Positions 19,150 through 48,299 of a stretch of DNA of 48,388 nucleotides are shown here, piece after piece. The notes below the pieces were generated by a model. That model was not told the DNA's origin. It made no database searches and saw only the letters and a program-made list of their open reading frames with translations. Origin of the DNA: Candidatus Goldiibacteriota bacterium (lineage in GTDB: Bacteria; Oederibacteriota; JAAXVQ01); contig JAGVPM010000127.1 of NCBI GenBank assembly GCA_020052235.1, positions 1 to 48,388 of the forward strand, in the 5' to 3' direction. The position numbers and the translations under genes are program-made. How positions within the stretch are numbered: position 1 is the first letter of the stretch; every line of letters begins with the position of its first letter.

Positions 19150-21936
19150 ATGAAATTGATTAAATTCGGGATTGTGATCTGTAGCCTGCTAACATTAAGC
19201 CAATGGAGCTGGGGTGACTGGATTCAGGATGGCGGGAGTATTAGTAATAATACAAACCCCGCATTGTATTACCCGAGCATTGCTTCTAACAACAATATAC
19301 CCTATGTCTCTTGGCAGGAACCTGACGGGGCATACCAAATATATGTAAAACATTTTTCCGGAAATACATGGGTACAAGATGCCGGTAGTTTAAATATTAA
19401 TACAACCTCAAACGGAGGTGGCCCCAAAATTGCGTTTGTCGGAACGACGCCTTATGTTGCTTGGACGGAGTATGCTTCAGTTTGGCGAATTTATGTAAAA
19501 CATTATAATGGCTCAAATTGGTTGAGTGACGGAAGCGGAAGTTTGAATATTAATGATAATTATTACGGTATTGATCCTTCAATTGCAATTCTTGGCAGCG
19601 TCCCTTATGTTACCTGGAGCGAGCGCAATGCGTCGGGAAAATTTCAGATCTATGTAAAACATCTATCCGGAACCACATGGATTCAAGATGGGTTAGAGTT
19701 GAATATCGATACGGCCCAAGAGGCCAGGGCACCCGATATTTCCTGTTCGGCAACGGCCCCCTATGTTGCTTGGTATGAAACCAAAGCTGGAACCAACCAA
19801 ATTAATGTAAAACATTTTAATGGAGCAGCTTGGATTGCGGACGGAGCGAGCCTGAATAATAATGCTCTGAAGAGCGCCCAATATCCAAGCTTGATGATGT
19901 CTGCTAATATTCCATATGTTGCGTTTCAAGAACAAAATTTATCGGATGTGTGGCAAGTTTACGTAAAATGTTTTAATGGGACGTCGTGGATTCAGTTAGG
20001 GAATGCTTTAAACAACCTTACGGCACAAAATGCCCAATATCCAAGGATTGCATTTGCGGGTGCAATTCCCTATGTTACCTGGATTGAGAGCGTGGGGAAC
20101 ACTGTTGATATAGTATATGTAAAGCATTTTGATGCCGGATCGAATCAATGGGTGGCGGACGGTGATTCTTTAAATTTAGATTCCACAAAAAATGCCCAAA
20201 CACCTCGAATTGCAATAAATAATCAAACGCCTTATGTTGTCTGGCAAGAAACAAATGTTTCGGGTGGCGAACAATTCTATGTAAAGCACATTGCGGACTC
20301 AACTCCTTCGGTTTTTTCTTGTTATCCGAAAAACGCAGTAAAAGATAACGTCCTCCCGAATGTACTCATTGAAGGATATAATTTAAATGCCCCCGTGGCA
20401 GTGAAGTTAATCCGTACGGATAATGCGGCGAGTATCGTTAACGGCTTTAACATTGTGAGAAAAAAGGGGACGGTTCTTAGTTGCGGATTTGACCTTACTA
20501 ATGCCGCACCGGGTTTTTATAATGTCCAAGTCGAAAGTGGTACGTTGAAAGGTGTTTTAAAACGTGGTTTTTTAATTCAAGAACGAGGGGTTTTACCTGC
20601 TCAATGGGCGATAACCGATATTGGCAATGTAACGAAATCAGCAGCGGCCGGATCATTGTGCGGTATTTCAGTGGAAGATGGGGATAATGATGGCGTGCAG
20701 GAGCTTTTCTTAGCCAATCGAAATCCGACTTTGTTCCGGGCAAAAAAAATGGCTGGTGGTTGGAGTATATCAGCCGTGGGGCAAGAAACTGTGGGGGAAT
20801 TGTACCTTGATACCTTGATTTGTGATCCTGCCAATAACGGTATGCTTAAAGTCTATGGAACGACATCAAATAGTTATCTTTACCAATACAGCGGAATAAC
20901 ACTGGATAAATCGAATTTTGGAACTTCAGTTAGTCCAGGGTATCGTTTGTGTATTGGCGATGGATTTAATGACGGTTGGTTTAAAATTTTTATGGCTGCG
21001 GGGAATGGCCATATTTATCAATTTCCTCAAAATGGCAACCAGAATAAGGATGATCTTTTGGCGGGCGTAGGCACTATGAATCCAATGAATAGCGTTGCAG
21101 TGGGGGATGGGAATTTAGATGGCGGTTTTGAAGTTTATGGTGCTTCATCGGATCACAGTATTTACCAATTTGTTTTCAATGGAACGGCTTGGGATAAAAC
21201 GGTAGTTGGTGCTGGAGGTGGTGAAATGTACGCTGTTACTTTGGCGGACATTGACAACGATGGAGGCATGGAAGTGTATGGCGCAAATGAAGATGGCGCT
21301 ATTTATCAGTTTAAATGGGGCTTTTCCGCATGGCAAAAGAATCAAGTTGGAACGTGTGGCGGAAAACTATTTGATCTGACCATAAACGACGGAGATAATA
21401 CCGGCGCGGTGGGAATATATGCCGCTTGCGCAGATGGACATGTTTATCAATTTAAACCTTCGGGTACTCAATGGATAAAAATGGATTTAAGCGGAACTTC
21501 GACACCCTTATATAAAATTGCCGCCGGAGATGGCGATAATGATAATTTGGTTGAAATATACGCCATTGGCGATAATGGGCATGTTTTTCAATTTAAAATG
21601 GCGGCGATTTTGAATCCCACCCCAACGCCAATTCCTGATTTCCGTGGTCAGATTATTTCTGCCAATTATGTTTTTTGCGCCCCCAATCCTGCTCGTGGAT
21701 CGTTCGCGAATCTGAATATTTTCACTCAGCAACCTGCGCATATTGATGTGAAAATATTCACTCCCGGCAGCCAATTGGTTTTTTCCTTTACGCGTGATTA
21801 CGCGGATATTGGAAAACATATAGAACGGATTGATCTCCATGACTTGGCCAATGGAGTTTATTTTATCTTAGTAAAAGCAAGAAATGAACAAGGTGCGGAA
21901 GAAAAAGTTACCTACAAAATGATATGGATAAAATGA
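19150..21936 (+). CDS. Giant secreted protein with two seven-bladed beta-propellers and a sorting-like C-terminal domain
   Basis: A 928-residue protein from the ATG at 19150, chosen because a signal peptide follows at once (cleavage near SWG). Residues 20-400 hold exactly seven repeats of about 52 residues built as W-x2-DG-x-SLN ... PxIA ... PYVxWxE ... IYVKHFNG. An IPT/TIG-like domain follows (about 400-490). A second set of seven repeats carries acidic turns such as DGDNDG ... EVYGA ... IYQF (about 495-820), like FG-GAP/VCBS blades that bind calcium. After a Pro/Thr linker (NPTPTPIP) comes a domain starting CAPNPARG and ending GVYFILVKARN, resembling type IX sorting or FlgD-Ig domains. A surface-exposed binding protein is likely; the ligand is unknown. 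Confidence 0.85.
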   Translation: MKLIKFGIVICSLLTLSQWSWGDWIQDGGSISNNTNPALYYPSIASNNNIPYVSWQEPDGAYQIYVKHFSGNTWVQDAGSLNINTTSNGGGPKIAFVGTTPYVAWTEYASVWRIYVKHYNGSNWLSDGSGSLNINDNYYGIDPSIAILGSVPYVTWSERNASGKFQIYVKHLSGTTWIQDGLELNIDTAQEARAPDISCSATAPYVAWYETKAGTNQINVKHFNGAAWIADGASLNNNALKSAQYPSLMMSANIPYVAFQEQNLSDVWQVYVKCFNGTSWIQLGNALNNLTAQNAQYPRIAFAGAIPYVTWIESVGNTVDIVYVKHFDAGSNQWVADGDSLNLDSTKNAQTPRIAINNQTPYVVWQETNVSGGEQFYVKHIADSTPSVFSCYPKNAVKDNVLPNVLIEGYNLNAPVAVKLIRTDNAASIVNGFNIVRKKGTVLSCGFDLTNAAPGFYNVQVESGTLKGVLKRGFLIQERGVLPAQWAITDIGNVTKSAAAGSLCGISVEDGDNDGVQELFLANRNPTLFRAKKMAGGWSISAVGQETVGELYLDTLICDPANNGMLKVYGTTSNSYLYQYSGITLDKSNFGTSVSPGYRLCIGDGFNDGWFKIFMAAGNGHIYQFPQNGNQNKDDLLAGVGTMNPMNSVAVGDGNLDGGFEVYGASSDHSIYQFVFNGTAWDKTVVGAGGGEMYAVTLADIDNDGGMEVYGANEDGAIYQFKWGFSAWQKNQVGTCGGKLFDLTINDGDNTGAVGIYAACADGHVYQFKPSGTQWIKMDLSGTSTPLYKIAAGDGDNDNLVEIYAIGDNGHVFQFKMAAILNPTPTPIPDFRGQIISANYVFCAPNPARGSFANLNIFTQQPAHIDVKIFTPGSQLVFSFTRDYADIGKHIERIDLHDLANGVYFILVKARNEQGAEEKVTYKMIWIK

Positions 21937-21964
21937 ATATAAGATACAGTACTGGGAGCTATAA

Positions 21965-24553
21965 TTGGGAAACGATAAATTAAGCCCATATAAAGGATAT
22001 ATTAATGCCGGTTTTATAGCGGCCGCAGCGATATTTTTCTTTTTTAAAGGTGATTATTTTACGGGGATTTTGGCCGGTATAATTGCTTGGTTTAGTTGGC
22101 AATCGAGGTTTTATTTTAATCGGGAAAATACCTGGATTGAATGCGTGGTTTTAACTGGAATGGTTGTTGTGTTTTTAGGAGTGGCTGCAAACATTCCAGG
22201 TGCCTTAAAACCAACAATTTTAATTTCGAATTTATCCGTTCCTTTTCTTCTAATAGCAAGCATATTATGGTTTTATCCACGGATTTATTCACAGTTCCGG
22301 CAGGGAAATGTTCAGCAAACCTTGCTGCCCATTAAACAGCGGGAATTGTATAGCGATGGGCTGGTAGTTTTGATATTTGTTTTTCTGATTTTGAAAAGTG
22401 CTTGGGTGGTTGATGATGCGTTTATCACATTTAGAACAATTGATAATTTTATTCATGGACTAGGTTTGGTGTGGAACACGGGTGACCGTGTGCAAGCTTA
22501 TACGCACCCATTGTGGCTTTTTGTTATAGCGGTTGCTTATTTCGTTACTCACGAAGCATATTATACATGCATTGTTTTCGGCTTGGTTTGCACCGTGATA
22601 GCCGTGATTTTAGCTAAACGGATATCGGAAACGGCTGGGACCGGTCATTATTCTTGGCTGCTGGGTATTTCACTTCTGAGTTTTTCTAAAGCTTTTATTG
22701 ATTATTCGACTTCGGGGCTGGAAAATCCGCTAATCTATTTTTTAATGGCAATGTTTTTCTTTTTCTATTTCCGTCCTGTCCAAACGTCTAAAACGATATT
22801 TTTACTTTCCGTAATAACTGCATTGGGAACATTAACGCGGATGGATGCGTTCTTGTTTTTTGCCATACCCCTTTGCCATGCGATGTGGACTGCCTATGCC
22901 GCCGAAGGACGAAAAGTATTTGGACTATTTTTGAAGGGATTTATTCCTTTTTTTGTGTGGGAGGCATTTTCGGTATTTTATTATGGGTTCCCATTTCCGA
23001 ATACCGCATATGCCAAATTAAACACTGGAATATCCACGTTACTTTTAATCCAGCAAGGCATGAAATATTTGGTCCATTCTTTGCGGATTGATCCGGTCAC
23101 CCTAACGATGATAACCGCTGGTTTAATCATTGCATTTATTCAGCGCAAACCGAAACCTCGTATGCTCGCGTTGGGCGTGCTTTGTTATTTGCTTTATGTG
23201 ATCTCAATCGGCGGGGATTCGATGAGCGGTCGTTTTTTAGCGGCGCCTTTTTTCGGTATGGTGTTGGTAATGATGTATTCCATTACATTAACACCTCGTT
23301 CAAGTGCTTGGATGATTATTCCCATGCTGGGTTTAATGCTGATATCGCCCGCCAATCCTTGGCGCGCCGATGCGTTTTATGATCGAACCCGTACGGCGAT
23401 TGATGCGGTGAATGATATTGATGACACTCGTGGCGGGTATTATCAGTCCACGGGTTTGTTTAGGGCCTCGGCAACGCAAAATCATGTCGGTATAGCCCGG
23501 GGGCAAGAGCTTAAAGAACAGGATGTGCCGGTATTCGTATATTCGATTATTGGGTATTTGGGGTATTACGCGGGACCGCGCGTATATATTGTGGATATTT
23601 GGGCTTTGGCCGATCCCCTATTAGCACGGTTGCCATGCGCTGCTTGGGGCTGGCGAATTGGCCATTTCATGCGCGCGCTGCCAACTGGGTATATTGAAAC
23701 GATTCAAAATCATAGGCTGGAATTTAAAGATGAAAATCTTGCGCTGTATTATGAAAAATTAAAAATAATCACCCAAGGTGAATTGTTTGGTTTTGAACGG
23801 CTTAAAACTATTGTGCTTATGAATTTGGGCTTTTACGAAAAATATATTGATCAAAAATTTTATAAAAATAGCGTGCCGGAGCAAGCAGTGCGTAATCTTG
23901 TCCCGGCCGTGGAATTTTTAATTCCGGCAAAAGACCGGTGCCCATATGCCGACTTAGTCAACCAAGGAATGGTTGCTGCGCAACTGGATGATTGGAATCG
24001 AGCTACGGGTTTATGGCAAAACGCCAAACAATTAAATCCGGCTAGAGTGGAAGCAGTTGCCAATTTGGGTGTTTATTATGAGAGAATTGGAAATAGTGAT
24101 GCGGCCTTGGAGGCATATAAGGTTGTTGCGGAAAAAATAGGATTACCGTGGAGCCAATATTGTGAACAATTAAAAGTGAATTTGATTTCGGAAAATAATT
24201 TGCCCACGCCAGTGATTCCAAAGAAAAACAGTGCGCCTCAATCAGAAACGAAAAGAATATTGGCAATGGCGCAAGATAAGAGCGCGTATGCAGAGTTGAA
24301 TAATTTGGGGGTTAAAGCCTTGATGCAACGCCAGGTGGAGGATGCAAGGCGAATTTGGTCTCAGGCAGAAGCACTCGATCCTTCGCGGCCGGAAGCTAAA
24401 GCGAATCTTGGGGTTTGGAATGAGCATGCTGGAAATTTTCCGTTGGCGTTAGAGGAATATAAATTTGCCGCACGGAAACTGGGCGAACCTTGGGATCGAT
24501 ATTATAATCAAGTGAAAGAACGAATTAAACGAAATGGGCCAAACAATCATTGA
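21965..24553 (+). CDS. GT-C fold membrane glycosyltransferase with C-terminal TPR modules
   Basis: An 862-residue protein starting at TTG 21965, 7 bases after GGGAG. About 10-12 membrane segments fill residues 10-480. The first large loop has VDDAFITFRTIDNF...GLVWNTGDRVQAYTHPLW, the acidic signature of polytopic GT-C enzymes related to AftB-like arabinosyltransferases, which use lipid-phosphate sugars. Residues 650-862 hold two copies of an approximately 100-residue TPR module (LGVYYERIGNSDAALEAYK and LGVWNEHAGNFPLALEEYK). It follows the double-propeller gene by 28 bases, so glycosylation of that protein or of a related envelope polymer is plausible. Sugar and acceptor are unknown. Confidence 0.82.
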   Translation: MGNDKLSPYKGYINAGFIAAAAIFFFFKGDYFTGILAGIIAWFSWQSRFYFNRENTWIECVVLTGMVVVFLGVAANIPGALKPTILISNLSVPFLLIASILWFYPRIYSQFRQGNVQQTLLPIKQRELYSDGLVVLIFVFLILKSAWVVDDAFITFRTIDNFIHGLGLVWNTGDRVQAYTHPLWLFVIAVAYFVTHEAYYTCIVFGLVCTVIAVILAKRISETAGTGHYSWLLGISLLSFSKAFIDYSTSGLENPLIYFLMAMFFFFYFRPVQTSKTIFLLSVITALGTLTRMDAFLFFAIPLCHAMWTAYAAEGRKVFGLFLKGFIPFFVWEAFSVFYYGFPFPNTAYAKLNTGISTLLLIQQGMKYLVHSLRIDPVTLTMITAGLIIAFIQRKPKPRMLALGVLCYLLYVISIGGDSMSGRFLAAPFFGMVLVMMYSITLTPRSSAWMIIPMLGLMLISPANPWRADAFYDRTRTAIDAVNDIDDTRGGYYQSTGLFRASATQNHVGIARGQELKEQDVPVFVYSIIGYLGYYAGPRVYIVDIWALADPLLARLPCAAWGWRIGHFMRALPTGYIETIQNHRLEFKDENLALYYEKLKIITQGELFGFERLKTIVLMNLGFYEKYIDQKFYKNSVPEQAVRNLVPAVEFLIPAKDRCPYADLVNQGMVAAQLDDWNRATGLWQNAKQLNPARVEAVANLGVYYERIGNSDAALEAYKVVAEKIGLPWSQYCEQLKVNLISENNLPTPVIPKKNSAPQSETKRILAMAQDKSAYAELNNLGVKALMQRQVEDARRIWSQAEALDPSRPEAKANLGVWNEHAGNFPLALEEYKFAARKLGEPWDRYYNQVKERIKRNGPNNH

Positions 24554-24634
24554 AAAATTTCATTATAGTTTGAAAAAAGTATAAAGTTAAAGGAATGATG
24601 TATTTTTTTACGGTGTGTGATTTAGAATTGAACT

Positions 24635-24656
24635 TACTTGCTGAAATGAGCAAGTA
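24635..24656. other. Perfect inverted repeat upstream of the KaiC-receiver gene
   Basis: TACTTGCT (24635-24642) and AGCAAGTA (24649-24656) are perfect 8-base complements around GAAATG. There is no T-run after it. The position about 85 bases before the chosen start makes it either an operator or a leader hairpin of the signalling operon. Confidence 0.45.
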
Positions 24657-24740
24657 GGCAGAGTAAAAGGCTTGCTGAGGGATTTAAGCCAGTGTTATAA
24701 TGATACGTTTTATACCCCATTTTCGAGCGAGGTGGCAGCC

Positions 24741-26579
24741 TTGACAACACCGAGACTTAAAACCGGCGTAACCGGTTTGGATGAATTATTGCTGGGTGGT
24801 TTTTTGGAAGGGGAAAGTATTTTGGTGGAAGGCTTGCCGGGCACGGGGAAAACCACCTTGGGCCTGCATTTTATTCTTCAAGGCATCGCCGATGGGCAGC
24901 CTGGAATTGTAATCACCTTTGAGGAATTTCCCGCGCAATATTACCGCGATGCGCTCAATTTTGGCTGGGATTTAAGGCAGTTGGAAAAAGACGGGCGCTT
25001 GCGCATCATTATGACCTCGCCGGAGGTTCTGCGCGGTGAAATGGAACGGCCGGGAGGCATGTTTGACCGTTTGACGCATGAATTGGGCGCCCGCCGGGTT
25101 CTGGTGGATTCAATCAACTTCCTGCATAAAATTAAAGATGAAGCCGGCACGCAGCGGGAACTGATTAATCATTTCATCAGCGGCTTCAAGCGCCAGGGGA
25201 TCACCAGCTTTTTAATCAAAGACATCGAAGGCGAGCACATCTCCCATTGGGGCATGTATTCCGTGGATTGCTATATCCGCCTGACGTTTGAATTGTTCCG
25301 CGATTACCAGCGGCGCCGGCTGATTGAAGTGTTTAAGGCGCGCGGTCAAAAACACATTTATGGCCAGCATCCGTTTGAAATAACCGAAGAAGGGGTTGAG
25401 ATTTATCCCACCTCGCTGCCGACGCCCATTTCAGTGGCCACCAAAGATACGGGCCAGGAAATACGCCGGATCAACAGCGGGGTTGCGGGACTGGATGAAA
25501 TGCTGGGTGGCGGTTTTTTCAGCGGGCAAACCATCCTGGTGGCGGGAACCTCCGGAACCGGAAAAACCAATCTGGCGCTGCACTTTTTGGCCCGCGGGCT
25601 GGAAAACGGCGAAACGTGCCTGTATTTTTCCCTGGAGGAGCAAGGCGGGAATTTATTGCGCCATGCCCGTTCCTTAGGTCTGGATTTATCCGGGTCGGTT
25701 CAGGATGAAAGATTGGTGGTGTTGAATGTTCCCGGAGCGGGCATCAGCGAAGGTGAATTTTTACACCTGTTGCGGCGTTACATCAATGAAGTGCGCCCGC
25801 AGCGTTTGGTGATTGATCCCATTTCATTTTTGAACAATATCGCAGCTTCGCCGGGAACGGCGCATATTACCTTCCAGACCATGGTCCGGATATTGCGCAA
25901 CGCGGGAGTAACGACGCTATGCACTTCCGAAATTCCTGAAATGGTGTGGGAATTCAAACTGAGCGATTCCAATTTGTCCTACTTGGTGGATACGGTCATT
26001 TTATTGCGTTTGGTGGAAATTGAAACCACCATCCGCAAAGCCATCATGATTATCAAGCAACGCGGTTCCAGCCATGACCGCAATTTGCGTGAATTGCTGA
26101 TTGACAACCAAGGCGTCCGCATCGGCGAACCGTTTTTAAGCCATGAGGGGATTTTGACCGGCATGACCCGCCGCCGTTCTGGCAGGGAGCCGAATAAAAT
26201 TTTAATCGTCGATGACGATCCCCGCATGGTGGAACTGATTAAAGCCAGTTTTCGGGATGAACGTTTTGTATTGGTGGATTGCGGCGACGGTGAATCCGCT
26301 CTGCGCATGAGTGTGATGGAAGAACCGGATTTAATCATTTTGGATTTGATGCTGCCGAAGTTAAACGGGTTTGAAGTTTGCCAAAAATTGAAAGCGGAAC
26401 CGGGGACCGCCGATATTCCCGTCATTATGCTTTCCGCAAAAGGAGAAACGGAATCCAAAGTCCAAAGCATGAATTTAGGGGCGGATGACTATATGACCAA
26501 ACCGTTTTCTCCCTTGGAACTGGTGGCGCGCGTAAAAATGATTCTCAGGCGGTCGTACGGCAAGAGGAAACATGAATGA
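24741..26579 (+). CDS. Tandem KaiC-domain ATPase fused to a response-regulator receiver
   Basis: A 612-residue protein from TTG 24741, favoured because GAGGTGG lies 5 bases upstream and KaiC homology starts directly; a TTG at 24672 would add 23 residues. KaiC domain 1 (about 1-240) has GLPGTGKTT (31-39), the catalytic pair Glu61-Glu62 and VLVDS. Domain 2 (about 245-480) has GTSGTGKTN (269-277), Glu299-Glu300 and LVIDP. At the KaiC phosphosite the sequence is NLSYLVDT: Ser413 is kept, but the neighbouring Thr is Tyr414. A receiver follows (about 490-612) with IVDDD, phospho-acceptor Asp535 and the final Lys of MTKPF. No kaiA or kaiB is nearby. The next two genes are histidine kinases, likely phosphodonors for the receiver. 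Confidence 0.93.
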   Translation: MTTPRLKTGVTGLDELLLGGFLEGESILVEGLPGTGKTTLGLHFILQGIADGQPGIVITFEEFPAQYYRDALNFGWDLRQLEKDGRLRIIMTSPEVLRGEMERPGGMFDRLTHELGARRVLVDSINFLHKIKDEAGTQRELINHFISGFKRQGITSFLIKDIEGEHISHWGMYSVDCYIRLTFELFRDYQRRRLIEVFKARGQKHIYGQHPFEITEEGVEIYPTSLPTPISVATKDTGQEIRRINSGVAGLDEMLGGGFFSGQTILVAGTSGTGKTNLALHFLARGLENGETCLYFSLEEQGGNLLRHARSLGLDLSGSVQDERLVVLNVPGAGISEGEFLHLLRRYINEVRPQRLVIDPISFLNNIAASPGTAHITFQTMVRILRNAGVTTLCTSEIPEMVWEFKLSDSNLSYLVDTVILLRLVEIETTIRKAIMIIKQRGSSHDRNLRELLIDNQGVRIGEPFLSHEGILTGMTRRRSGREPNKILIVDDDPRMVELIKASFRDERFVLVDCGDGESALRMSVMEEPDLIILDLMLPKLNGFEVCQKLKAEPGTADIPVIMLSAKGETESKVQSMNLGADDYMTKPFSPLELVARVKMILRRSYGKRKHE

Positions 26580-28618
26580 TGCGCCTGCCTGAGTTGGTTT
26601 TAAAGGTTTCCCTCGCTCTGGTTTTCCTGCTGGTCGTTGCCAACCATGGTTTTTCACTTGAACGCCCCAATCGGCTGCGCGTCGGCGGTCCTTTGGCATT
26701 TGCCCCCTATGCTTATTTGGATGGAACCTATACGGGGTTTTCCGCGGATGTGGTGCAGGCCTTGGGTCAAAATTTGGCCATTGACAATGTTTTGTTCTAT
26801 CCCGCCACGCCCGGCGAAAATTGGCGCGCGTTGTCGGAAAACGAAGTGGATTGTTTGCATTGCATCCGGTATACGCCGTCGTTAAGCGCCACTTATATTT
26901 GGGCGGGAAGTTACTTGGATACCGCCTCGATGATATTTGTGCTAAACTCGTGTTTTGACATTTCACGTTTGCGCGATTTAAACGGGAAACGGGTGGCGGT
27001 GCTGGGCGATGATGCGGCCTACGAACGTTTCAAGAGCCTGCCGGATATTCAAGTGGTGCTGGTGGATTCCTTGGAAAAAGGCCTGGAGTATTTGCGTTCC
27101 GGCCGGGTGGACGCGTATGCCGGGGAGCGGTTGAGTACCCTGCGCTATTTAGGCGAGCATAAAAAACAAGCGCAGATTAAAATGATCGGTTCGGAAGTGG
27201 CGCACGCGCATTACGGATTGGTGGTTAAGAAGAACAAAGCTGCGCTGGCGCGGCGCCTCATTCAGGCGCTAAAGGATATGGAAACCTCCGGAGAACGGGA
27301 ACGGATTTTCCGGCAATGGTTCGGGGAAGAAATTCAGCCCCAAACGCCCTTATCGCGCCGGGTCATCCGTTGGGTTTTTGTTTTTGTGGGAGGCTCGTTG
27401 TTGGTGGCCATGATCGTGCTGGGCTGGAATCTGCTGCTGCAGCGTGAATTGGAACTAAAGGCGATTGCCGTTGAAAAAGCGCACCTGGATCAGGCCATTG
27501 CCGAGGAAAAAGGGCGTTTTGAAGCCATTGTACAATCCATGACCGAAGGGTTGATGCTGGTGGATCCCCAAGGCCGCATTGCTTTTGTTAATGCCCGGGG
27601 CGCGCAATACTTGGGACGGCAGATCGATGACTTGCTGGGAAAACCGTTGTCGGCCTTAAAGGAATATTTATTGGGAGTCGTCAAGGACCCGGAATTGCTT
27701 ACCCGTAAATTGGAACACGCCGAGAGTTATCCGACCCGGCCGAACGTGATTGAATACCATATTGTTACTACGCGGCGTACGGACATGCGCTTGAAAGTAT
27801 TCCCGGTGAGCGATCCCAAGGGGGAATTTGCCGGGCGGGGTGTTTTAATCGAGGATATGACCCACGAACGCGAGATTGAACGCATTAAATCGGAATTTGT
27901 TTCCATCGCCAGCCACGAGTTGCGGACGCCCATGACCAGCATCCTGGGGTTTTCCGAGATTATACTTACCCAGGAATTGCCGGCGGAATTGGGACGGCGG
28001 TACACCGAACAAATCCATAAAGAAGCGGAGCGGTTGACCCGGATTCTTAACGATATGCTGGATATCAGTTACCTGGAAAGCGGCGAAGGCATATTGGATA
28101 AAAAACAAATCAAGATATCCGGGTTGGTTCAGGATGTGGTGAATGCGTTTCACGCCCAATTAAAGGACCGGCGCGAAATTCATATTGCGGTTCAATCCCA
28201 GGTGGAAACTCTGCCTGGGGACCGGGACAAATTGACGCAGGTACTGTGGAATTTGCTCTCCAATGCGGATAAATATTCTCTGCCCGGAAAAGAGATACGG
28301 ATCGAAATCGCACAGCATGAAACCTTAAATCCCCAATGGGAAATTCCGGCGGATGAGAGCGAAAATTTATTGCCGTTGCTGGAAATACGCGTAGTCGATT
28401 TTGGGCAGGGAATTCCGGCGGATCAATTATCCCTGATTTTTATTCCGTTTCACCGCGTTGAGACCGCGGTGCATACGATTCGGGGAACAGGGTTGGGTTT
28501 GGCGATCGTCAAACGCATTGTGGAAGCGCACGGAGGAAGGGTGTGGGCCTGGAGTGAATTGGGACAGCAAACCGTTTTTACGGTGCTGCTGCCCATCCGG
28601 CCCCAGCCTGTACTCTAA
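26576..28618 (+). CDS. Membrane histidine kinase with periplasmic solute-binding sensor domain
   Basis: A 680-residue sensor kinase, translationally coupled to the KaiC-receiver gene (ATGA). Order: signal/anchor (8-25), periplasmic type 3 solute-binding domain (about 32-255, with LRVGGPLAFAPYAYLDG and GFSADVVQAL), membrane segment (about 263-285), short coiled coil, PAS (about 300-420), HisKA with ASHELRTPMTSI (His447, Glu448), and HATPase with NLLSNADKYS, DFGQGIPADQ and GTGLGLAIV. The sensor domain should bind an amino acid or similar small molecule. The normal H-box predicts full autokinase activity. The REC domain of the preceding gene is the obvious target. Confidence 0.94.
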   Translation: MMRLPELVLKVSLALVFLLVVANHGFSLERPNRLRVGGPLAFAPYAYLDGTYTGFSADVVQALGQNLAIDNVLFYPATPGENWRALSENEVDCLHCIRYTPSLSATYIWAGSYLDTASMIFVLNSCFDISRLRDLNGKRVAVLGDDAAYERFKSLPDIQVVLVDSLEKGLEYLRSGRVDAYAGERLSTLRYLGEHKKQAQIKMIGSEVAHAHYGLVVKKNKAALARRLIQALKDMETSGERERIFRQWFGEEIQPQTPLSRRVIRWVFVFVGGSLLVAMIVLGWNLLLQRELELKAIAVEKAHLDQAIAEEKGRFEAIVQSMTEGLMLVDPQGRIAFVNARGAQYLGRQIDDLLGKPLSALKEYLLGVVKDPELLTRKLEHAESYPTRPNVIEYHIVTTRRTDMRLKVFPVSDPKGEFAGRGVLIEDMTHEREIERIKSEFVSIASHELRTPMTSILGFSEIILTQELPAELGRRYTEQIHKEAERLTRILNDMLDISYLESGEGILDKKQIKISGLVQDVVNAFHAQLKDRREIHIAVQSQVETLPGDRDKLTQVLWNLLSNADKYSLPGKEIRIEIAQHETLNPQWEIPADESENLLPLLEIRVVDFGQGIPADQLSLIFIPFHRVETAVHTIRGTGLGLAIVKRIVEAHGGRVWAWSELGQQTVFTVLLPIRPQPVL

Positions 28619-40423: not shown

Positions 40424-40521
40424 ATTGCAAATTATTGTATGGGAACGAATCCATTATTCCCGCATTAATCGTAGTATCCCCTCCACAATCAAATGGAGAA
40501 CCTGCCGAGAGGAGACAGAGC

Positions 40522-42282
40522 ATGCTGGAAAGCGAACGTCTACGACTGAGTCAGGAAATTGAGGATCTCGCCGCCAAGTACAATTATCAGCGCCAAAGCC
40601 TTTTGCCTATTCTGCAAGCCATCAAAACCAAGCATCACCACATCAGCGATTTTGCCTTACAGGAGGTTGCCCGCCTGCTGTCCATACATCCGGTGGAAGT
40701 TTATGGGGTGGTCAGTTTTTACTCATTTCTTTCCACCAGCCAGCAAGGGAATTTTGTTATCCGTCTTTGCCGGACTATTTCCTGCGAACTCGCCGGCAAG
40801 GATGTTATTGCCCGGCAACTTCAGAATGAATTGGGAATCAAGTTTGGGGAAACAACCGCAGACGGACGTTTTTCACTCTTTTGGGCCAATTGCCTGGGCA
40901 TGTGCGACCAAGGACCGGCCTTGTTGATTAATGATTATGTTTTTACCAAGGTCACGGCTGACCAGGTTTTTGATATTTTGGAAGCTTGCCGGCGCAGTTT
41001 CGGCGTGTTTGCGCTCCAAGGCCGAAATACACTCAACAGTGAAGCTGCCGTGCAATCCAATGTGAAAACCGGCGTCTCCGTGGAATCCGGAGTTTTATCC
41101 AATAATGATTTAAATCAGGGCTTGAAAGCCTCAATCCAAGGCACGCCTGAAAACGTGATCCAAATCATCAAGGAATCCGGGCTTAAGGGCCGCGGTGGCG
41201 CCGGATTTCCCACGCACATTAAATGGGAACTGGCAGCCAAGAGCAAGTCCGAACAAAAATATGTGGTCTGCAATGCCGACGAAGGGGAACCCGGAACCTT
41301 TAAAGACCGCATGTTGATCTCCGATTACCCAGACTTGGTCCTAGAAGGCATGACCATTGCCGGCTATGCCTTGGGCGCTAAAAGCGGCATTGTTTATTTG
41401 CGGGGTGAGTATTCGTATCTATTGAAATCCTTGCAAAAGGCGGTGGATGCGCGCCGGGCGCAGCATTTGCTGGGTGCGGATATTCTCGGTAAAAAAGGTT
41501 TTACTTTTGATGTCGATATTCGCCTGGGATCCGGCGCCTACGTATGCGGCGAAGAGACCGCTTTGATTGAATCCCTGGAAGGGCAGCGTGGCGAGCCGAG
41601 GAACCGCCCGCCGTTCCCGGTCAATACCGGGTATAACTCCAATCCCACCATTGTCAATAACGTGGAAACGTTTGTCATGGCGGCGCATATCCTGGCCAAA
41701 GGACCGGGTTGGCTGAAGCAGCAGGGTACCAAATTATCGACCGGAACCAAACTTTTTTCCGTGTCGGGCAATTGTGCCCATCCGGGCATTTATGAATTTC
41801 CCTACGGCGTCACCATCTCGGAGCTCTTGCGGAAAGTCGGCGGCGAAGATGCCAAGGCAGTGCAGGTTGGAGGGGCTTCCGGCCGGTGTGTTCCGCGTTC
41901 GCAATTCGAGCATATTATCGCTTTCGAGGATATTCCCACCGGCGGCTCGGTTATTGTTCTGGGGCCAGATACCAGCATGCTTAATGTCGCTAAAAATTTC
42001 CTGGAATTTTTCAATGAAGAAAGCTGCGGGCAATGCACACCCTGCCGTATTGGCAACCGGCGGCTGTTGGAAGGGGTGGAAATGCTCGAAGAAGGCAAGT
42101 GTTCCATTAAATACCTGCGTGAGCTCCAGAATTTGGGCAAAAGCATGCAGTTGGCCAGTAAATGCGGTTTGGGCCAGTCCTCACCCAATGCTTTTTTGAG
42201 CATTACCGAATATTTCAAAGATGAAATTCTAGGCAAAGTTCATGAAACGGTTCAGCTGGAAAAAGGAGGAACACGCGCATGA
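40522..42282 (+). CDS. Fused NuoE-NuoF-like NAD(P)H-oxidoreductase subunit of [FeFe] hydrogenase
   Basis: A 586-residue protein from the ATG at 40522, which follows GAGGAGA by 7 bases. Residues 1-160 are a thioredoxin-fold NuoE/HydC domain with the 2Fe-2S ligands CRTISC and CLGMC. Residues about 195-586 are a NuoF/HydB core: GLKGRGGAGFPTHIKW and CNADEGEPGTFKDR for FMN and NADH, GSGAYVCGEETALIESLEG, and CGQCTPCRIG plus a later Cys for the 4Fe-4S cluster. The extra C-terminal 2x[4Fe-4S] ferredoxin domain of typical HydB is missing; the protein ends shortly after the cluster. It passes electrons between NAD(P)H and the HydA subunit encoded by the next gene, which overlaps by 4 bases. Confidence 0.92.
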   Translation: MLESERLRLSQEIEDLAAKYNYQRQSLLPILQAIKTKHHHISDFALQEVARLLSIHPVEVYGVVSFYSFLSTSQQGNFVIRLCRTISCELAGKDVIARQLQNELGIKFGETTADGRFSLFWANCLGMCDQGPALLINDYVFTKVTADQVFDILEACRRSFGVFALQGRNTLNSEAAVQSNVKTGVSVESGVLSNNDLNQGLKASIQGTPENVIQIIKESGLKGRGGAGFPTHIKWELAAKSKSEQKYVVCNADEGEPGTFKDRMLISDYPDLVLEGMTIAGYALGAKSGIVYLRGEYSYLLKSLQKAVDARRAQHLLGADILGKKGFTFDVDIRLGSGAYVCGEETALIESLEGQRGEPRNRPPFPVNTGYNSNPTIVNNVETFVMAAHILAKGPGWLKQQGTKLSTGTKLFSVSGNCAHPGIYEFPYGVTISELLRKVGGEDAKAVQVGGASGRCVPRSQFEHIIAFEDIPTGGSVIVLGPDTSMLNVAKNFLEFFNEESCGQCTPCRIGNRRLLEGVEMLEEGKCSIKYLRELQNLGKSMQLASKCGLGQSSPNAFLSITEYFKDEILGKVHETVQLEKGGTRA

Positions 42283-44231
42283 CCCCGGAAAAAAATGTGA
42301 GTAACAATCCAGCCCCCTGTGGGGTGGATACCCGTACACCCGTCAGCCAGCGGCTCAATGAGGATGAGGTTTCCTGCCGCATGGCGGCGGAAGGCGTTAA
42401 AATTAAAGTAACGATTAATCAGCAAATTGTGGAAGTCACAGCCCGAACCACTATTTTACAGGCAGCCAAGCAAGTCAATATTCATATCCCTACGCTGTGT
42501 TACCATCCGGATCTTTGCGTGGCGGGCGTTTGCCGGATCTGCGTGGTGGAAGTGGAAGGGCAAAAAGCCCTGCAGACAGCCTGTTCCTATCCGATTACCG
42601 AGCCGATCGTGGTGCAAACCTCCACCCCGAAGGTGAGAAGAGCCCGCAGGCATATTTTGGACTTGATGCTCTCGGAGCACTATGGAGAATGTTACTCCTG
42701 CGTGCGGAACAACAACTGTGAACTGCAATCCTTGGCCAAGGAATACGGCGTGGATTTTTACCGTTTTGGGCACGTGCATGAGCCCAAGTATGTGGTGGAC
42801 AGTTCCTCCTATTCCGTGGTCCGGGATATGAATAAGTGCATTTTGTGCCGCCGGTGCGTGCGCACCTGTATTGATCTCCAGGAAGTCGGTGTGCTGGAAG
42901 CCATCAATCGCGGAGCTCAGACTAAGATTGCCACCTTCATGGACAAGCCGCTCGCGGATGTTGTTTGCATTAATTGCGGCCAGTGCATAAACCGTTGTCC
43001 CACCGGTGCGCTGCGGGCCAATGACCCCTCGGACGATATTTGGGCCGCCATTGACGACCCGGACAAGCATGTGATTATTCAAACCGCGCCCAGCCCCCGG
43101 GCCGCCATTGGCGAGGCTTTTGGCGCTGCGCCGGGAACTTCCTTGACGCGGGAAATGAATACCGCGCTGCGCCGTTGCGGATTCAGCAAAGTATTTGACA
43201 CGGATTTCACGGCGGATTTGACCATACTGGAAGAAGGCACGGAATTGTTATTGCGGCTGAAAAAAGCCTTGGTTGACAAAGATGCCGGCGTTGCGCTTCC
43301 GCAATTCACTTCCTGCTCCCCGGGTTGGGTTAAATACCTGGAACATTTTTTCCCGGAATACATTCCCAATATGAGCACGGCGAAAAGCCCGCAGCAAATG
43401 TTCGGGACCATCATGAAAACGTATTATGCCCAGAAAAACAATATTGATCCCGCCAAAATCGTTACCGTGGCTTTGATGCCCTGCTCAGCGAAAAAATTCG
43501 AATGCAATCGCCCGGAAATGTCGGATTCCGGCTACAAGGACATTGATTATGGGTTAACCACCCGGGAAATGGCCCAAATGATTCAGGAAGCGGGCATAGA
43601 TCTGCTTTCGCTGCCCAAAAGCGATTTTGACGATCCTTTTGGCGAAGCCTCAGGCGCGGGCGTTATCTTTGGGGCCACGGGCGGGGTTATGGAAGCCGCA
43701 CTGCGTTCGGTCGTAGAGATTGTCACCGGTTTAAAGGCTGAACAGGTATTTGAAAATCTGGAGGTAAAGCCGATTCGCGGATTTGAAGGCATTAAGTATA
43801 TGGAATTGAAAATTCCGCAAGTCGGACCGGTTCCGGAAATTTTAAAGAATTTGAAAATAGCGAATTGGGATTTCCTCAACGGGGCGACGCTTAAAATCGC
43901 CGTGGCGCACGGAACTGCCAATGCCAAAAAAGTCATGGAGGACATCAAAGCCGGCGGTAAATTTTCAGAGTGCCACTTTATAGAATTCATGGCCTGTCCG
44001 GGCGGGTGTTTGGGAGGCGGTGGGCAACCCATACCGACTTCACCCGAAATCCGCGAGGCCCGGGCCAAAGCCATTTACGCTGAGGATGAGTCCCAGAAAA
44101 TCCGCAAGTCCCATGAAAACCCCTACGTGCTTAAGATATACAAGGAATTTTTCACGGACGGGCCTTGCAGTGAAAAGAGCCATCATCTTCTGCATACGCA
44201 CTACATCAACCGGGGAAAAGCCATTGTATAA
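42279..44231 (+). CDS. [FeFe] hydrogenase catalytic subunit (HydA/HndD type)
   Basis: A 650-residue enzyme starting in an ATGA overlap. N-terminal 2Fe-2S domain (CYHPDLCVAGVCRIC ... C), His-Cys3 cluster (HYGECYSCVRNNNC), two ferredoxin clusters (CILCRRCVRTC and CINCGQCINRC), then the H-cluster domain. Its motifs are L1 TSCSPGW (Cys346, Ser347), L2 LMPCSAKKFE and L3 EFMACPGGCLGGGGQP. L1 has Ser where the canonical TSCCPxW has the second Cys. The C-terminal small-subunit-like segment (HENPYVLKIYKEF ... HTHYINR) is present. With the fused NuoEF partner this makes a two-gene, soluble, NAD(P)H-linked hydrogenase, bidirectional or H2-producing. Confidence 0.95.
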   Translation: MTPEKNVSNNPAPCGVDTRTPVSQRLNEDEVSCRMAAEGVKIKVTINQQIVEVTARTTILQAAKQVNIHIPTLCYHPDLCVAGVCRICVVEVEGQKALQTACSYPITEPIVVQTSTPKVRRARRHILDLMLSEHYGECYSCVRNNNCELQSLAKEYGVDFYRFGHVHEPKYVVDSSSYSVVRDMNKCILCRRCVRTCIDLQEVGVLEAINRGAQTKIATFMDKPLADVVCINCGQCINRCPTGALRANDPSDDIWAAIDDPDKHVIIQTAPSPRAAIGEAFGAAPGTSLTREMNTALRRCGFSKVFDTDFTADLTILEEGTELLLRLKKALVDKDAGVALPQFTSCSPGWVKYLEHFFPEYIPNMSTAKSPQQMFGTIMKTYYAQKNNIDPAKIVTVALMPCSAKKFECNRPEMSDSGYKDIDYGLTTREMAQMIQEAGIDLLSLPKSDFDDPFGEASGAGVIFGATGGVMEAALRSVVEIVTGLKAEQVFENLEVKPIRGFEGIKYMELKIPQVGPVPEILKNLKIANWDFLNGATLKIAVAHGTANAKKVMEDIKAGGKFSECHFIEFMACPGGCLGGGGQPIPTSPEIREARAKAIYAEDESQKIRKSHENPYVLKIYKEFFTDGPCSEKSHHLLHTHYINRGKAIV

Positions 44232-44248
44232 TATTTCGAGATTATCGG

Positions 44249-44283
44249 CGGGGGGCAAGCCTAAGCTTGCCCCCCGTTTTTTT
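44249..44283 (+). terminator. Strong rho-independent terminator after the hydrogenase genes
   Basis: A perfect 12-base stem, CGGGGGGCAAGC (44249-44260) with GCTTGCCCCCCG (44265-44276), closes a CTAA loop and is followed by seven T. It separates hydA from hydE, so the maturase has its own transcription or relies on read-through. Confidence 0.95.
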
Positions 44284-44322
44284 ATGATTGAATCGATGTT
44301 TTTTTAGGTGTAAAAGGAATGC

Positions 44323-45366
44323 ATGATGTTAACCCGGTTTATGACATTGGAAACCATAGAGGCTTGGCTGCGGGAAACGAACCCGGAGCGTTTGGAACTG
44401 CTTTGGCAAACCGCGGATAAAGTGCGCAAGCAGACCGTGGGAGATGAAGTTTATTTTCGCGGTTTGATTGAGCTTTCGAACTATTGTTCGCGGAATTGTT
44501 TGTATTGCGGACTCCGGGGCGAGAGGAAAAACCTGGAGCGTTACAGGATGACGGTTGGGGAAATTAAAGCCTGTGTTTTGGAGGCCAAGGTTTTGGGGTA
44601 TGGCACAGTGGTGCTGCAATCAGGCGAAGACCCCGGGTTGGACCCCGAAGTGATGGCGGATTTAATCCGCTGGATCAAACGCGAAGCCGGTTTGGCAATT
44701 ACGCTTTCCTTGGGAGAACGTTCGGAAGCAGTTTTCCGTTTGTGGAAACAAGCGGGTGCGGACCGTTACCTGCTCAGGATAGAGACTACGGATGATGCAT
44801 TCATGCAGGTCATTCATCCTGGGGAACCCCACGGTTCCCGCAAGGCAAATATTGACCGTTTGTTTGCCTTGGGATACGAGGTTGGTTCAGGGGTCATGGT
44901 GGGTATTCCAGGACAGACTTACGGTATTCTAGCCAAGGATTTACTTTGGTTCAGGGAGCGAGATTTTGACATGATCGGCATTGGTCCACACTTGGCGCAT
45001 CCGGATACACCTTTGGCCAAGGTCAATACAAATCAGCCGGATCAGGTTCCGAATACGGAAGTGGTTACGCACAAGGCAGTGGCTTTAACCCGGATTTTAT
45101 GCCCCGAAGCCAATTTACCTGCCACCACGGCTTTGGCCACCGTGAATCGTGAAGACGGCAGGGAAATGGCGCTTAAGCGCGGGGCCAATGTGGTTATGCC
45201 CAATGTCACGCCGACCAAGTACCGCAAGTTATATGAGATTTATCCGTCCAAAGCCTGCATTGATGAGACCGCGGATATGTGCAAAAATTGTTTGGGAGGA
45301 CGTATTTTATCCCTTGATCGCAAGGTCGGAAAAGGGCCTGGAGCACGGCAGAGGAATAAATACTAA
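44323..45366 (+). CDS. hydE: [FeFe] hydrogenase H-cluster radical SAM maturase HydE
   Basis: A 347-residue radical SAM protein. The SAM cluster motif is CSRNCLYC (Cx3Cx2C, near residue 52). HydE-like blocks follow: GTVVLQSGEDPG, ITLSLGERSE, LRIETTDDAFMQVIHPG, GSGVMVGIPGQTY and IGIGPHLAHPDTPL. A second cysteine set near the C-terminus (CIDETADMCKNC, Cx7Cx2C) matches the optional extra cluster of Thermotoga HydE. It helps build the diiron subcluster of HydA. AAGGA precedes two consecutive ATGs (44323 and 44326); the second has better spacing. hydF and hydG are not in the window. Confidence 0.93.
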   Translation: MMLTRFMTLETIEAWLRETNPERLELLWQTADKVRKQTVGDEVYFRGLIELSNYCSRNCLYCGLRGERKNLERYRMTVGEIKACVLEAKVLGYGTVVLQSGEDPGLDPEVMADLIRWIKREAGLAITLSLGERSEAVFRLWKQAGADRYLLRIETTDDAFMQVIHPGEPHGSRKANIDRLFALGYEVGSGVMVGIPGQTYGILAKDLLWFRERDFDMIGIGPHLAHPDTPLAKVNTNQPDQVPNTEVVTHKAVALTRILCPEANLPATTALATVNREDGREMALKRGANVVMPNVTPTKYRKLYEIYPSKACIDETADMCKNCLGGRILSLDRKVGKGPGARQRNKY

Positions 45367-45407
45367 ATCATGAAAACAGCGGCATTTTTTTGGGAAATGA
45401 GCGCACA

Positions 45408-47078
45408 ATGATCGGCATTAGGCAGGAACCAATATGGGCAAGATCAAATTTTGACATAGTGTTAGGATTCTTGACGGCCCTAGCTGCGTTATTTCTGTTA
45501 CGGTTGCAGATTTCGGTTTCGGGATGGAGTTTGTTAGCACTTTCAGCTTTTTTTCTTTGGCACATTACGGAAGTCAAGGAATCGGAAGCTATACTCAATG
45601 ATTTTTCGCCGCGTACCGAACTTGTTTTATTTTTTATAATTTTCGTAGTTGGTATTGTATTGCGTCTTTGGGATCTGCATCAAATACCGCCCGCTTGCTG
45701 GTTTGACGAAGCAGAAAATGGCTTGGAAACGTTGGGCGTATTGTCAGGAAAACATTTAGTCTTTACGTCACAAAATAATGGCAGAGGTGCCTTGCAATTC
45801 TATTGGGCCTCTCCGTTTTTTCTTTTTTTTGGCGCGACTGTGTTTTCTTTGCGTTTGTCCATGGCCACTTTAGGAATTATAACCATCCCCGCTGCCTGGC
45901 AATTATTCCGAAAAATAGGCGGTCCTTTTGTCGGCTTGGCTGCCTCTGCGTTTGTAGCCTTCTCCGTATGGCATATTACCATCAGCCGCACAGGCTTTGA
46001 TGCCGTTATGACCCCTCTGTTTGATGTTCTTATTATCTATTCCATTTTCAAAGCTGTTCACACCAAAAAATACGTGTGGTTTGGATTTTTGGGTTTTTTA
46101 ATCGGTTTGGCAAACTATGGTTATGTCGCTTCACGACTAAGTATATTACTGGCGGGAATTGCCTTCTGGTTGTTTTTGCCGAAGGAGAAAAATGAGAAGA
46201 AGCGAGTTGTTTATGGAATCATTCTTGCCGGAGCGGTACTGCTTATAACTCTGCTCCCTTTGGTTGTTCATTTCGCGCATTTTCCAGATGACTTGGCAAA
46301 AAGGACAAACCAAACCTCGGTACTAAGCACGGTTATCCAGAAAAAGTCGTTAATGCCACTGGCCAAAACGGTAAAATCCACCTTTGAAATGTTTTATGGG
46401 CGTGGTGACCCCAATGCCCGTCACAATTTATCGAAAGCGCCAATGTTGGATATTCTCACCGGGCTTATGTTTTTTGTAGGCTTGATCTCATTTATTAAAA
46501 ACCTCAAGGGTAAAGACCCTTGGTTAATATTTGTGTTGATATGGTTGTCATTACCTTTGATATTTGGCGGCATGATGACGGAACCGGCACCACACGGATT
46601 GAGAACGCTAGCGGCACTCATGCCAATTTGCTTTATTGCTGCCAATGGTCTTAATTTTTCTTTGAACCTTATACCAACAACCAAACGGCTCCGGTTGGTG
46701 TTGGGCGGTGTGTTTTTTTTCTTGGTGGCAATTTTGGCTTCTCACCAATATTTTATTGTTTATCCTGCTAATCCAGAAACACGCGCTGCTTTTAGTCCCA
46801 CGGCTTACCAGGCAGGGAAATATGTTAAAGCATTGCCGCTCAGTGAGTCAGTCGCGGTATCAAAAGATATAGACCTAAGCATAGTGAAATTTATTTCCAA
46901 CCAGCCAGAACGAAAGTTGAATGTTTTTGATCCGAACATGGCAATTTTATACACCACGACATATATACTTGCGAATCAACCTGAAGCAACGGACATCATT
47001 CGAAACAATAAGCACCATTGCGAAATAATAACTATTGAGCATGAACAATTCATTGTCTGCAAGCCAATGACACACTAA
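45408..47078 (+). CDS. GT-C fold polytopic glycosyltransferase (PMT/ArnT-like)
   Basis: A 556-residue membrane protein from the ATG at 45408; a TTG at 45390 would add six residues. About 11-12 hydrophobic segments cover residues 15-455. The first periplasmic loop carries WFDEAENGLETLGVLSGKH, the acidic pair expected for lipid-phosphate-sugar-using mannosyltransferase-like GT-C enzymes. A C-terminal soluble region (about 455-556) follows. It has no TPR extension, unlike the GT-C at 21965. Forty-two bases later comes another seven-bladed propeller gene, repeating the pairing seen at 19150-24553. Donor and acceptor are unknown. Confidence 0.83.
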   Translation: MIGIRQEPIWARSNFDIVLGFLTALAALFLLRLQISVSGWSLLALSAFFLWHITEVKESEAILNDFSPRTELVLFFIIFVVGIVLRLWDLHQIPPACWFDEAENGLETLGVLSGKHLVFTSQNNGRGALQFYWASPFFLFFGATVFSLRLSMATLGIITIPAAWQLFRKIGGPFVGLAASAFVAFSVWHITISRTGFDAVMTPLFDVLIIYSIFKAVHTKKYVWFGFLGFLIGLANYGYVASRLSILLAGIAFWLFLPKEKNEKKRVVYGIILAGAVLLITLLPLVVHFAHFPDDLAKRTNQTSVLSTVIQKKSLMPLAKTVKSTFEMFYGRGDPNARHNLSKAPMLDILTGLMFFVGLISFIKNLKGKDPWLIFVLIWLSLPLIFGGMMTEPAPHGLRTLAALMPICFIAANGLNFSLNLIPTTKRLRLVLGGVFFFLVAILASHQYFIVYPANPETRAAFSPTAYQAGKYVKALPLSESVAVSKDIDLSIVKFISNQPERKLNVFDPNMAILYTTTYILANQPEATDIIRNNKHHCEIITIEHEQFIVCKPMTH

Positions 47079-47120
47079 GTTTGGAGATAAAATGTAAATT
47101 TTTTAGAGAAAGGACGATAG

Positions 47121-48299
47121 ATGAATTTTAAAAATATTATATTATTAATGGTTTGTTGTTTGGCATTATTAGGTTCGCTGGGTGGAACATGTTGGGCAAA
47201 ATGGGTTCAGGATGGCGAAAGTTTAAATGTTGAACCACAAAAAAGAACAATGCTTGCTGGAATAGCTTTGGCTCCAAACGCGCTTTATGTGGCCTTCGTT
47301 GAAGGAAACACGCATTCAGCTTGGGATGAGAATCGCCTTGATCTGAAAATTTATGTCAAGCATTGGGATGGGGAAAAGTGGCTCCAGGATGGTGAAAATG
47401 TTAATGAGACAAGTAAGTCCGGCATATATTTGCCAAGCATAACGGTTATTCAAAACAAGCCGTATGTCGCATGGCATGGAAGCGATTATGTAGGGCATGT
47501 CCGTCACTTAGAAAACGGTAAATGGGCAGATGATGGAAAACCTATCCAACGTGTCGAATTTCCCCGGATTATTAATTTAAACAACACTCCCTATTTAATC
47601 TTAAACCGAGGCAGTTTGATGTCCACAAATCGCTTGTTAAATCATGAGTGGGTTGCTGAAGGCAATCCTCTATTAACTCAACAGATTTTTTGTTATCCAA
47701 CTTGGACTTTTTCTTTTAAAGGTGATTTATACGGTACCTGGGTTGAGCGTTCGCTCCAAAAAAAATATCAAGTTTACGTCAAGCATATTCAAAAAGGTGT
47801 TTGGGGCTATAATGCAGGCCCGGTATTTGAAAGCGCCGTGCTTCCCGCTGCGAATCCTAATTTGATTGTGGTGAACGAAACTCCCTATGTGGCTGCGGAT
47901 GACGGGAAGGAAATTTATGTCAAACATTTTGAAACCGATAAGTGGGTGCAGGATGGCCAGGCTATGGATGGCGGTGGTCCTGTACTGTTTTATGTTGATG
48001 GCATGTTGCATGTGACCTGGACGGCAGATAAAATATATTTTGCTCATTTTACTGGAAAAGAATGGAGGTCGGACGGGCTGACCCTTGAAGGGTATTATCC
48101 GGCTGTGGGTTATATGAACGGAATACTTTATGTTATCTATCAACGCGATGACAAAGCGGGAGTACCGCATATATATGTTAGCCATTGGGAGATGGTACCA
48201 ATGCCTTTGCCCACCCCGGAGCCAGCAGGAACACCGGTCATTATTCCTGATGACCAACGTAATTCGGGTAGCATTACAAATCCGGTTAGACTAGTGTAG
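47121..48299 (+). CDS. Secreted seven-bladed beta-propeller protein, C-terminal domain truncated
   Basis: A 392-residue protein with a signal peptide (residues 1-27, cleavage near CWA) and AAAGGA about 7 bases upstream of the ATG. Seven repeats follow, each starting W-x2-DG or a variant (WVQDGE, WLQDGE, WADDGK, WVAEGN, WGYNAG, WVQDGQ, WRSDGL) and most ending in IYVKH or a related strand. They match the first propeller of the 928-residue protein. A Pro/Thr linker (PLPTPEP) comes next, and the chain stops at ITNPVRLV. The NPVR string aligns with the NPAR that opens the sorting-like domain of the larger protein, so that domain appears lost here. A dispersed repeat begins about 25 bases after the stop. 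Confidence 0.85.
   Translation: MNFKNIILLMVCCLALLGSLGGTCWAKWVQDGESLNVEPQKRTMLAGIALAPNALYVAFVEGNTHSAWDENRLDLKIYVKHWDGEKWLQDGENVNETSKSGIYLPSITVIQNKPYVAWHGSDYVGHVRHLENGKWADDGKPIQRVEFPRIINLNNTPYLILNRGSLMSTNRLLNHEWVAEGNPLLTQQIFCYPTWTFSFKGDLYGTWVERSLQKKYQVYVKHIQKGVWGYNAGPVFESAVLPAANPNLIVVNETPYVAADDGKEIYVKHFETDKWVQDGQAMDGGGPVLFYVDGMLHVTWTADKIYFAHFTGKEWRSDGLTLEGYYPAVGYMNGILYVIYQRDDKAGVPHIYVSHWEMVPMPLPTPEPAGTPVIIPDDQRNSGSITNPVRLV

Follow-up and report, generated by a model that had tools for sequence, protein, structure and literature searches.

Glycosylation of cargo proteins of the type IX secretion system (T9SS) is established, but little is known about which enzyme acts on which cargo. The glycan of the surface layer (S-layer) proteins TfsA and TfsB of Tannerella forsythia comes from a general O-glycosylation route, and we know of no GT-C glycosyltransferase gene beside each T. 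forsythia cargo. Both proteins are T9SS cargo and surface glycoproteins (PMC10202324). In Cytophaga hutchinsonii, the C-terminal sorting domain (CTD) of Cel9A is glycosylated in the periplasm, a modification that is required for secretion (PMC10202324, PMC11858162). TMTC1-4 are GT-C enzymes with tetratricopeptide repeat (TPR) tails that are implicated in protein O-mannosylation, the TPRs lying in the lumen of the endoplasmic reticulum (PMC7801869). The contig JAGVPM010000127.1 of a Candidatus Goldiibacteriota bacterium (48,388 nucleotides, the window) is an entire contig (C114) of a 3.17 Mb genome (200 contigs, 99% complete). It carries two loci in which a GT-C gene adjoins a propeller gene. 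Locus 1 (17714-24553, all plus strand) comprises a PorV-like barrel, the propeller protein A and a GT-C enzyme with a TPR tail; locus 2, at the contig end, comprises a second GT-C enzyme and the propeller protein B. Both propeller open reading frames and the GT-C gene beside each were described in a first-pass annotation of the window and are real. GT-C genes are strongly enriched beside a subtype of T9SS CTD, which is found on protein A and not on protein B, and do not track the propeller repeat. The features of locus 1 are as follows.

17714-19003, plus strand: PorV/UPF0164-family outer-membrane barrel with an extra C-terminal domain of about 100 amino acids (NF033709, UPF0164, alignment)
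19123-21936, plus strand: protein A, a predicted T9SS-type cargo with signal peptide, seven-bladed propeller, FG-GAP-like half, P/T linker and CTD
19219-20313, plus strand: seven W-x2-DG/PYVxW/YVKH blades of protein A, residues 24-388 (blade hidden Markov model (HMM), structure model)
20320-21639, plus strand: second half of protein A ("secA" region), FG-GAP-like, approximately residues 391-830 (PF13517 20 bits, below cut-off; homologues)
21670-21924, plus strand: T9SS CTD of protein A, order-specific subtype (subtype profile 108 bits, PF18962, PorU CTD 6za2)
21965-24553, plus strand: AftB-like GT-C glycosyltransferase with a soluble C-terminal part (AftB 9dlf 2.7e-17; profile 1.1e-24)
23885-24550, plus strand: C-terminal TPR module with G-x-PW-x2-Y, common to GT-Cs of other cassettes (alignment, motif scan, Pfam TPR)

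The genome resembles the T9SS bearers Porphyromonas and Flavobacterium in its SprA above the cut-off, PorV-family barrels, C25 peptidase and Ig-like CTD cargo similar to that of PorU. It differs in its placement in FCPU426, outside Bacteroidota, in cargo cassettes with their own PorV paralogue and in the link of one CTD subtype to GT-C genes. Like TfsA and TfsB, protein A would be a T9SS cargo that is a surface glycoprotein. As in C. hutchinsonii, sugar would reach the cargo in the periplasm; however, CHU_3842 is described as PglA-like, whereas the cassette neighbours are GT-C enzymes. The DxNxS motif of CHU_3842-type CTD N-glycosylation was not found in the CTD of protein A. Because this CTD lacks the Cel9A-type motif, the acceptor at locus 1 must differ from that on Cel9A. 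Like TMTC1-4, the locus 1 enzyme consists of a GT-C membrane part followed by a C-terminal TPR tail, expected on the catalytic side. Unlike them, it is bacterial, has fewer TPRs and gives no match to the DUF1736 loop (PF08409) in a Pfam scan; the cassette cores are AftB-like or PMT_2, and the acceptor is putative. Its membrane core aligns with that of AftB, but it reaches only 56 bits against the AftB equivalog NF041481 (cut-off 1050) and stands apart from AftB in its TPR tail and T9SS cassette setting.

Association of GT-C genes with a CTD subtype

All eight genomes of the order served as the comparison set (labels of the style G000-G007; C denotes a contig and L a locus). Genes matching PF13231 (PMT_2) were counted within 6 kb of each CTD and each propeller homologue. 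Each genome holds 11-20 PF13231 matches and, by profile search, 28 to 90 CTDs. The strong subtype was defined as CTDs of at least 95 bits against the profile of the window-type CTD; the CTD list reaches down to about 54 bits, and the remaining listed CTDs served as a secreted-protein control. Thirteen of 36 strong-subtype CTDs lie within 6 kb of a PF13231 GT-C gene, against 2.5 expected by random placement, whereas the other listed CTDs do so in 5 of 114 cases (7.6 expected). The two classes differ with a Fisher P of 4.6e-6, and with a P of 0.00028 when the subtype label is shuffled within genomes, both values being computed over related cassettes that are not statistically independent. The count of 13 is conservative because PF13231 does not detect the GT-Cs of the window's locus 1, of C28 and of G004:C5. 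The enrichment does not stem from one duplicated cassette, since the GT-Cs beside the strong subtype form at least six groups that cannot be aligned with one another at E 1e-4. It also holds irrespective of the cargo N-terminus, which may be an A-type propeller, a set of NHL repeats or a small domain (about 100 amino acids). Gene-by-gene reading of loci found a polytopic protein of at least 400 amino acids directly beside 10 of 38 strong-subtype cargos and beside none of the 62 others. This figure is supporting only, as these loci were mostly chosen for propeller, second-half or CTD matches and some for GT-C matches. In 32 other genomes of the phylum, a search for the strong subtype (E 1e-18) found none beyond two weak matches of about 70 bits, so that replication outside the order was not possible. 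A P/T-rich linker was considered as a further mark of the GT-C-linked subtype and rejected (P/T/S fraction 0.40 in the subtype vs. 0.37 in others).

The behaviour of the control bears on a different explanation, in which GT-C genes and T9SS cargo have no direct link and simply meet in general envelope or polysaccharide regions. A lectin-like propeller cargo might then hold a polymer that the GT-C helps to make. The number of PF13231 matches in each genome and the tendency of envelope genes to cluster favour it, as does the likeness of the protein B model to PLL lectins and polysaccharide lyases. Generic clustering nevertheless fails to explain the subtype effect, because the other CTDs in the same genomes show no GT-C excess, and we regard this explanation as unlikely.

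Among the 47 propeller homologues, 5 have a PMT_2 GT-C gene within 6 kb, where random placement predicts 3.4. The first-pass annotation had proposed a recurring pairing of propeller and GT-C enzyme, which should appear as GT-C enrichment near homologues found with the blade HMM relative to secreted proteins; for propellers as a class there is no such enrichment in the eight genomes, the outcome that the annotation had named as its refutation. That the blade propeller is itself the GT-C partner, with locus 2 as a second instance, is consequently very improbable. The pair is indeed present at both window loci, and A-type propellers (blades, second half and CTD) pair with GT-C genes at C169 and at C198, C353 and C221 of G006 (C221 being truncated). 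However, GT-C neighbours are also seen for cargos that combine this CTD with NHL repeats or a small N-terminal domain, and no propeller lies near the closest homologue of the locus 2 GT-C. Ortholog searches place the GT-C homologues of both loci mostly on contigs without propellers. From these searches alone the pairing could be taken as pure coincidence, a view that direct reading of the neighbourhoods overturned for locus 1.

Cassettes in the order

In the genome of the window, six contigs (C114, C169, C28, C30, C56 and C132) each carry a GT-C gene and a CTD cargo together with a PorV, which is of the same subgroup throughout; on C53 and C154, cargo and PorV occur without GT-C. The cargo begins with A-like blades in C114 and C169 and with NHL-repeat propellers in C30, C56 and C154. 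Genome G006 contributes five more GT-C-TPR genes beside strong-subtype cargo (C198, C353, C221, C6 and C196). The G-x-PW-x2-Y TPR module ends the GT-C of locus 1 and those at L052, L079, L080, L083, L102 and L105. The membrane parts that precede it belong to different groups, both AftB-like and PMT_2-type. Three AftB-like relatives (in G002 and G007) carry the module without adjacent strong-subtype cargo. Near two CTD cargos, membrane proteins with DUF2298 (L052 4148-6349 and L057 7069-9576), which we take to be GT-C-like, are paired with PMT_2 genes.

A second cassette type occurs in G004 and G006, in which a CTD protein of about 200 amino acids is followed by a protein of about 220-335 amino acids, with GT-C-like genes close by. 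At L214, L215, L216 and L217 (G004:C26, G006:C128, G004:C60), the short CTD proteins have a common N-terminal domain. Two of the four partner proteins (L215, L217) end in a weakly gp53-tail-fibre-like C-terminus.

Protein A and its GT-C neighbour

Protein A comprises 937 amino acids from the ATG at 19123 or 928 from the ATG at 19150; the latter start is more likely because it gives a cleaner signal peptide. The hydrophobic N-terminus MKLIKFGIVICSLLTLSQWSWG was judged by eye to be a signal peptide. The seven blades lie in register and score 83-94 bits each with an HMM built from protein A itself. The first-pass annotation had counted the repeat exactly seven times in each propeller protein. Seven blades stand for protein A, and seven degenerate ones for protein B, but exact motif counts are irregular: in protein A, W-x2-DG occurs 5 times and PYVxW 6 times. 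Blade number was taken from the HMM, and structure models were judged by predicted local distance difference test (pLDDT) and, for protein B, by Foldseek. In the AlphaFold model of protein A the propeller part (residues 24-382) has a pLDDT of about 75, in keeping with the propeller assignment; the remainder is not reliably modelled. The second half is a further propeller-like repeat region. The CTD scores 29.8 bits against PF18962 (cut-off 27), which makes it a T9SS sorting domain, and falls narrowly short with TIGR04183 (20.9 bits, cut-off 23). In a profile search it resembles the CTD of PorU (6za2, 7.7e-7). The first-pass annotation mentions neither this CTD nor the second half of protein A nor the TPR tail of the adjacent GT-C. 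The final N-x-S/T of protein A is at residue 677, and the CTD begins near 841.

Only 28 bases separate protein A from the locus 1 GT-C. The enzyme has the features that define the GT-C class, a polytopic core and an acidic motif in the first non-cytoplasmic loop, here a DD motif (VVDDAFITFR) following a transmembrane helix.

Secretion machinery and proposed route

The T9SS parts examined were SprA, PorV, the PorU/C25 peptidase and cargo CTDs. The genome of the window encodes SprA/Sov, on G000:C134 (TIGR04189, 263.9 bits, cut-off 200), and a C25 peptidase, the catalytic family of PorU, is present (135 bits). The PorV-like barrel reported earlier at locus 1 is supported by 114.8 bits against the subfamily model NF033709 (cut-off 90); against the PorV equivalog NF033710 it reaches 41 bits, under the cut-off of 250. 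It has at least seven close paralogues in its own genome, 53-72% identical to the window copy. The extra domain of about 100 amino acids after the barrel is well conserved among the cassette PorV paralogues. The closest named relatives of the gene are in a metagenome-assembled genome (MAG) labelled candidate division FCPU426 and in MAG RS_6_11, and the genome is placed in an order of FCPU426 because of these relatives, with a single protein family as the basis.

Locus 1 may be a T9SS display cassette, one of six such sets in the genome, in which a dedicated PorV-like barrel serves a propeller cargo with an order-specific CTD and the GT-C-TPR enzyme glycosylates the cargo or its anchor. This is the reading we prefer, though tentatively. 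The sequence itself shows which genes make up the set and that the set recurs, and likewise the CTD subtype, the homologues of SprA, PorV and C25 peptidase and the GT-C enrichment beside the subtype; the route proposed for the cargo is as follows. The signal peptide would take protein A across the inner membrane. In GT-C enzymes the catalytic loop and C-terminal soluble domain are on the periplasmic side, and the catalytic loop and TPR tail of the locus 1 enzyme are predicted to face the periplasm likewise. The TPR module could hold the cargo or its surface anchor, and the enzyme would transfer a sugar from a polyprenyl-phosphate donor to one or the other before or during T9SS export, both acceptor and sugar being putative. 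Transfer to the surface would follow through SprA and presumably the PorV of the same cassette, and the PorU-like C25 peptidase would process the CTD. The surface glycoprotein display system linked to GT-C enzymes that was suggested at first is kept here as CTD-subtype cassettes, including locus 1; the propeller as partner and locus 2 as an example are dropped.

Several points weigh against this reading. The threshold of 95 bits was chosen after the score list had been seen. Roughly one strong-subtype cargo in two lacks a nearby GT-C, although several of these are at contig ends. The orthologues of the locus 1 GT-C in G002 and G007 have no adjacent strong-subtype cargo. AftB, the enzyme closest to this GT-C, acts on polysaccharide and not on protein. 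A motif scan of the CTD of protein A found neither N-x-S/T nor the O-glycosylation motif D(S/T)(A/I/L/M/T/V). The C25 peptidase is not matched by a PorU assignment, the PorU model NF033707 scoring under its curated cut-off.

A further PMT_2 gene adjoins SprA. It is divergent to SprA and lies directly before LptF/LptG (G000:C134, L124 5302-13571; G004:C12; G007:C293). Within the order no PMT_2 gene is more conserved, and in G000, G004 and G007 it is the top PMT_2 match.

The position of this gene is one argument for a possible, though less probable, explanation in which the GT-C modifies a lipid or lipopolysaccharide anchor rather than protein. A PorU-like sortase would join the CTD class to a surface glycan, which the GT-C would trim or decorate; in Porphyromonas, anionic lipopolysaccharide (A-LPS) serves as such an anchor. 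Consistent with this explanation, the only NCBIfam family that the SprA-adjacent gene matches, and that weakly, is the lipid A modifier ArnT, the acceptor of AftB is a glycan, a C25 peptidase is encoded, and a flippase-like Polysacc_synt gene lies beside the C30 cassette. On the other hand, the variety of GT-C families found next to single cargos is easier to reconcile with cargo-specific work than with one common anchor, the common TPR modules suggest a protein partner, and the PorU model falls short of its cut-off.

The display cassette reading can be extended to a modular scheme, which is more speculative and, in our estimate, rather doubtful. Each T9SS cargo of the one CTD subtype would be paired with a GT-C enzyme of its own, the enzymes belonging to many families. 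In several cassettes, recognition of the cargo or the sorting domain would fall to a shared TPR adaptor, so that glycosylation would be built into sorting. If TPR tails do recognise cargo, they would represent a natural adaptor swap between unrelated membrane glycosyltransferases. Gene order alone yields candidate pairs of enzyme and cargo, and the CTD subtype predicts which cargos have a GT-C partner. The genome also adds the candidate phylum FCPU426 with a SprA translocon above the curated cut-off.

Protein B and locus 2

At locus 2, HydE (44323-45366) is followed by the GT-C gene, protein B and the contig end.

45390-47078, plus strand: GT-C glycosyltransferase, PMT_2 type, without TPR (PF13231 34 bits, cut-off 26.1)
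47121-48299, plus strand: protein B, 392 amino acids, with signal peptide and degenerate seven-bladed propeller, without CTD
48326-48350, plus strand: dispersed repeat CATTGCGAGCAAAGCGAAGCAATCT at the contig end (28 genome copies allowing at most one mismatch)

Protein B has five exact copies of W-x2-DG, three of YVKH and one of PYVxW. Against the blade HMM it nonetheless scores 110 bits in total over seven weaker fragments, whereas none of 400 shuffled sequences exceeds 6.8, and phmmer connects it to protein A; the repeat common to both proteins is therefore not due to chance. The AlphaFold model of protein B is all-beta (pLDDT 77, predicted template modelling score 0.73). Its top Foldseek matches are beta-propellers throughout, including the LGI1 EPTP domain and PLL lectins, and it is also likened to polysaccharide lyases, so that structure prediction bears out the propeller assignment made earlier.

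The GT-C gene and protein B are probably coincidental, unrelated neighbours, although sequence missing past the contig end leaves some doubt. No CTD was found after protein B in another frame, all frames having been searched to the contig end. The best match to the GT-C outside the window (G007:C7, 40% identity, L115) is the propeller-free relative noted above. Because protein B has no CTD and this relative no adjoining propeller, locus 2 falls outside the cassette pattern. One neighbouring pair of propeller and GT-C is unsurprising in a 3.17 Mb genome with some 18 PMT_2 matches and around eight propeller genes. Many copies of the dispersed repeat lie about 40-130 bases from contig ends, and the assembly probably breaks after locus 2 because of the copy located there.

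Other features of the window

HydE belongs to a hydrogenase operon (40435-45366) that also encodes a NuoF-like subunit and an [FeFe] hydrogenase of group A6 (814 bits). Positions 24672-26579 encode a protein in which inspection shows a receiver domain and two repeats of a KaiC/RadA-like ATPase; it weakly matches mad8, a model of the MADS defence system (43.6 bits).

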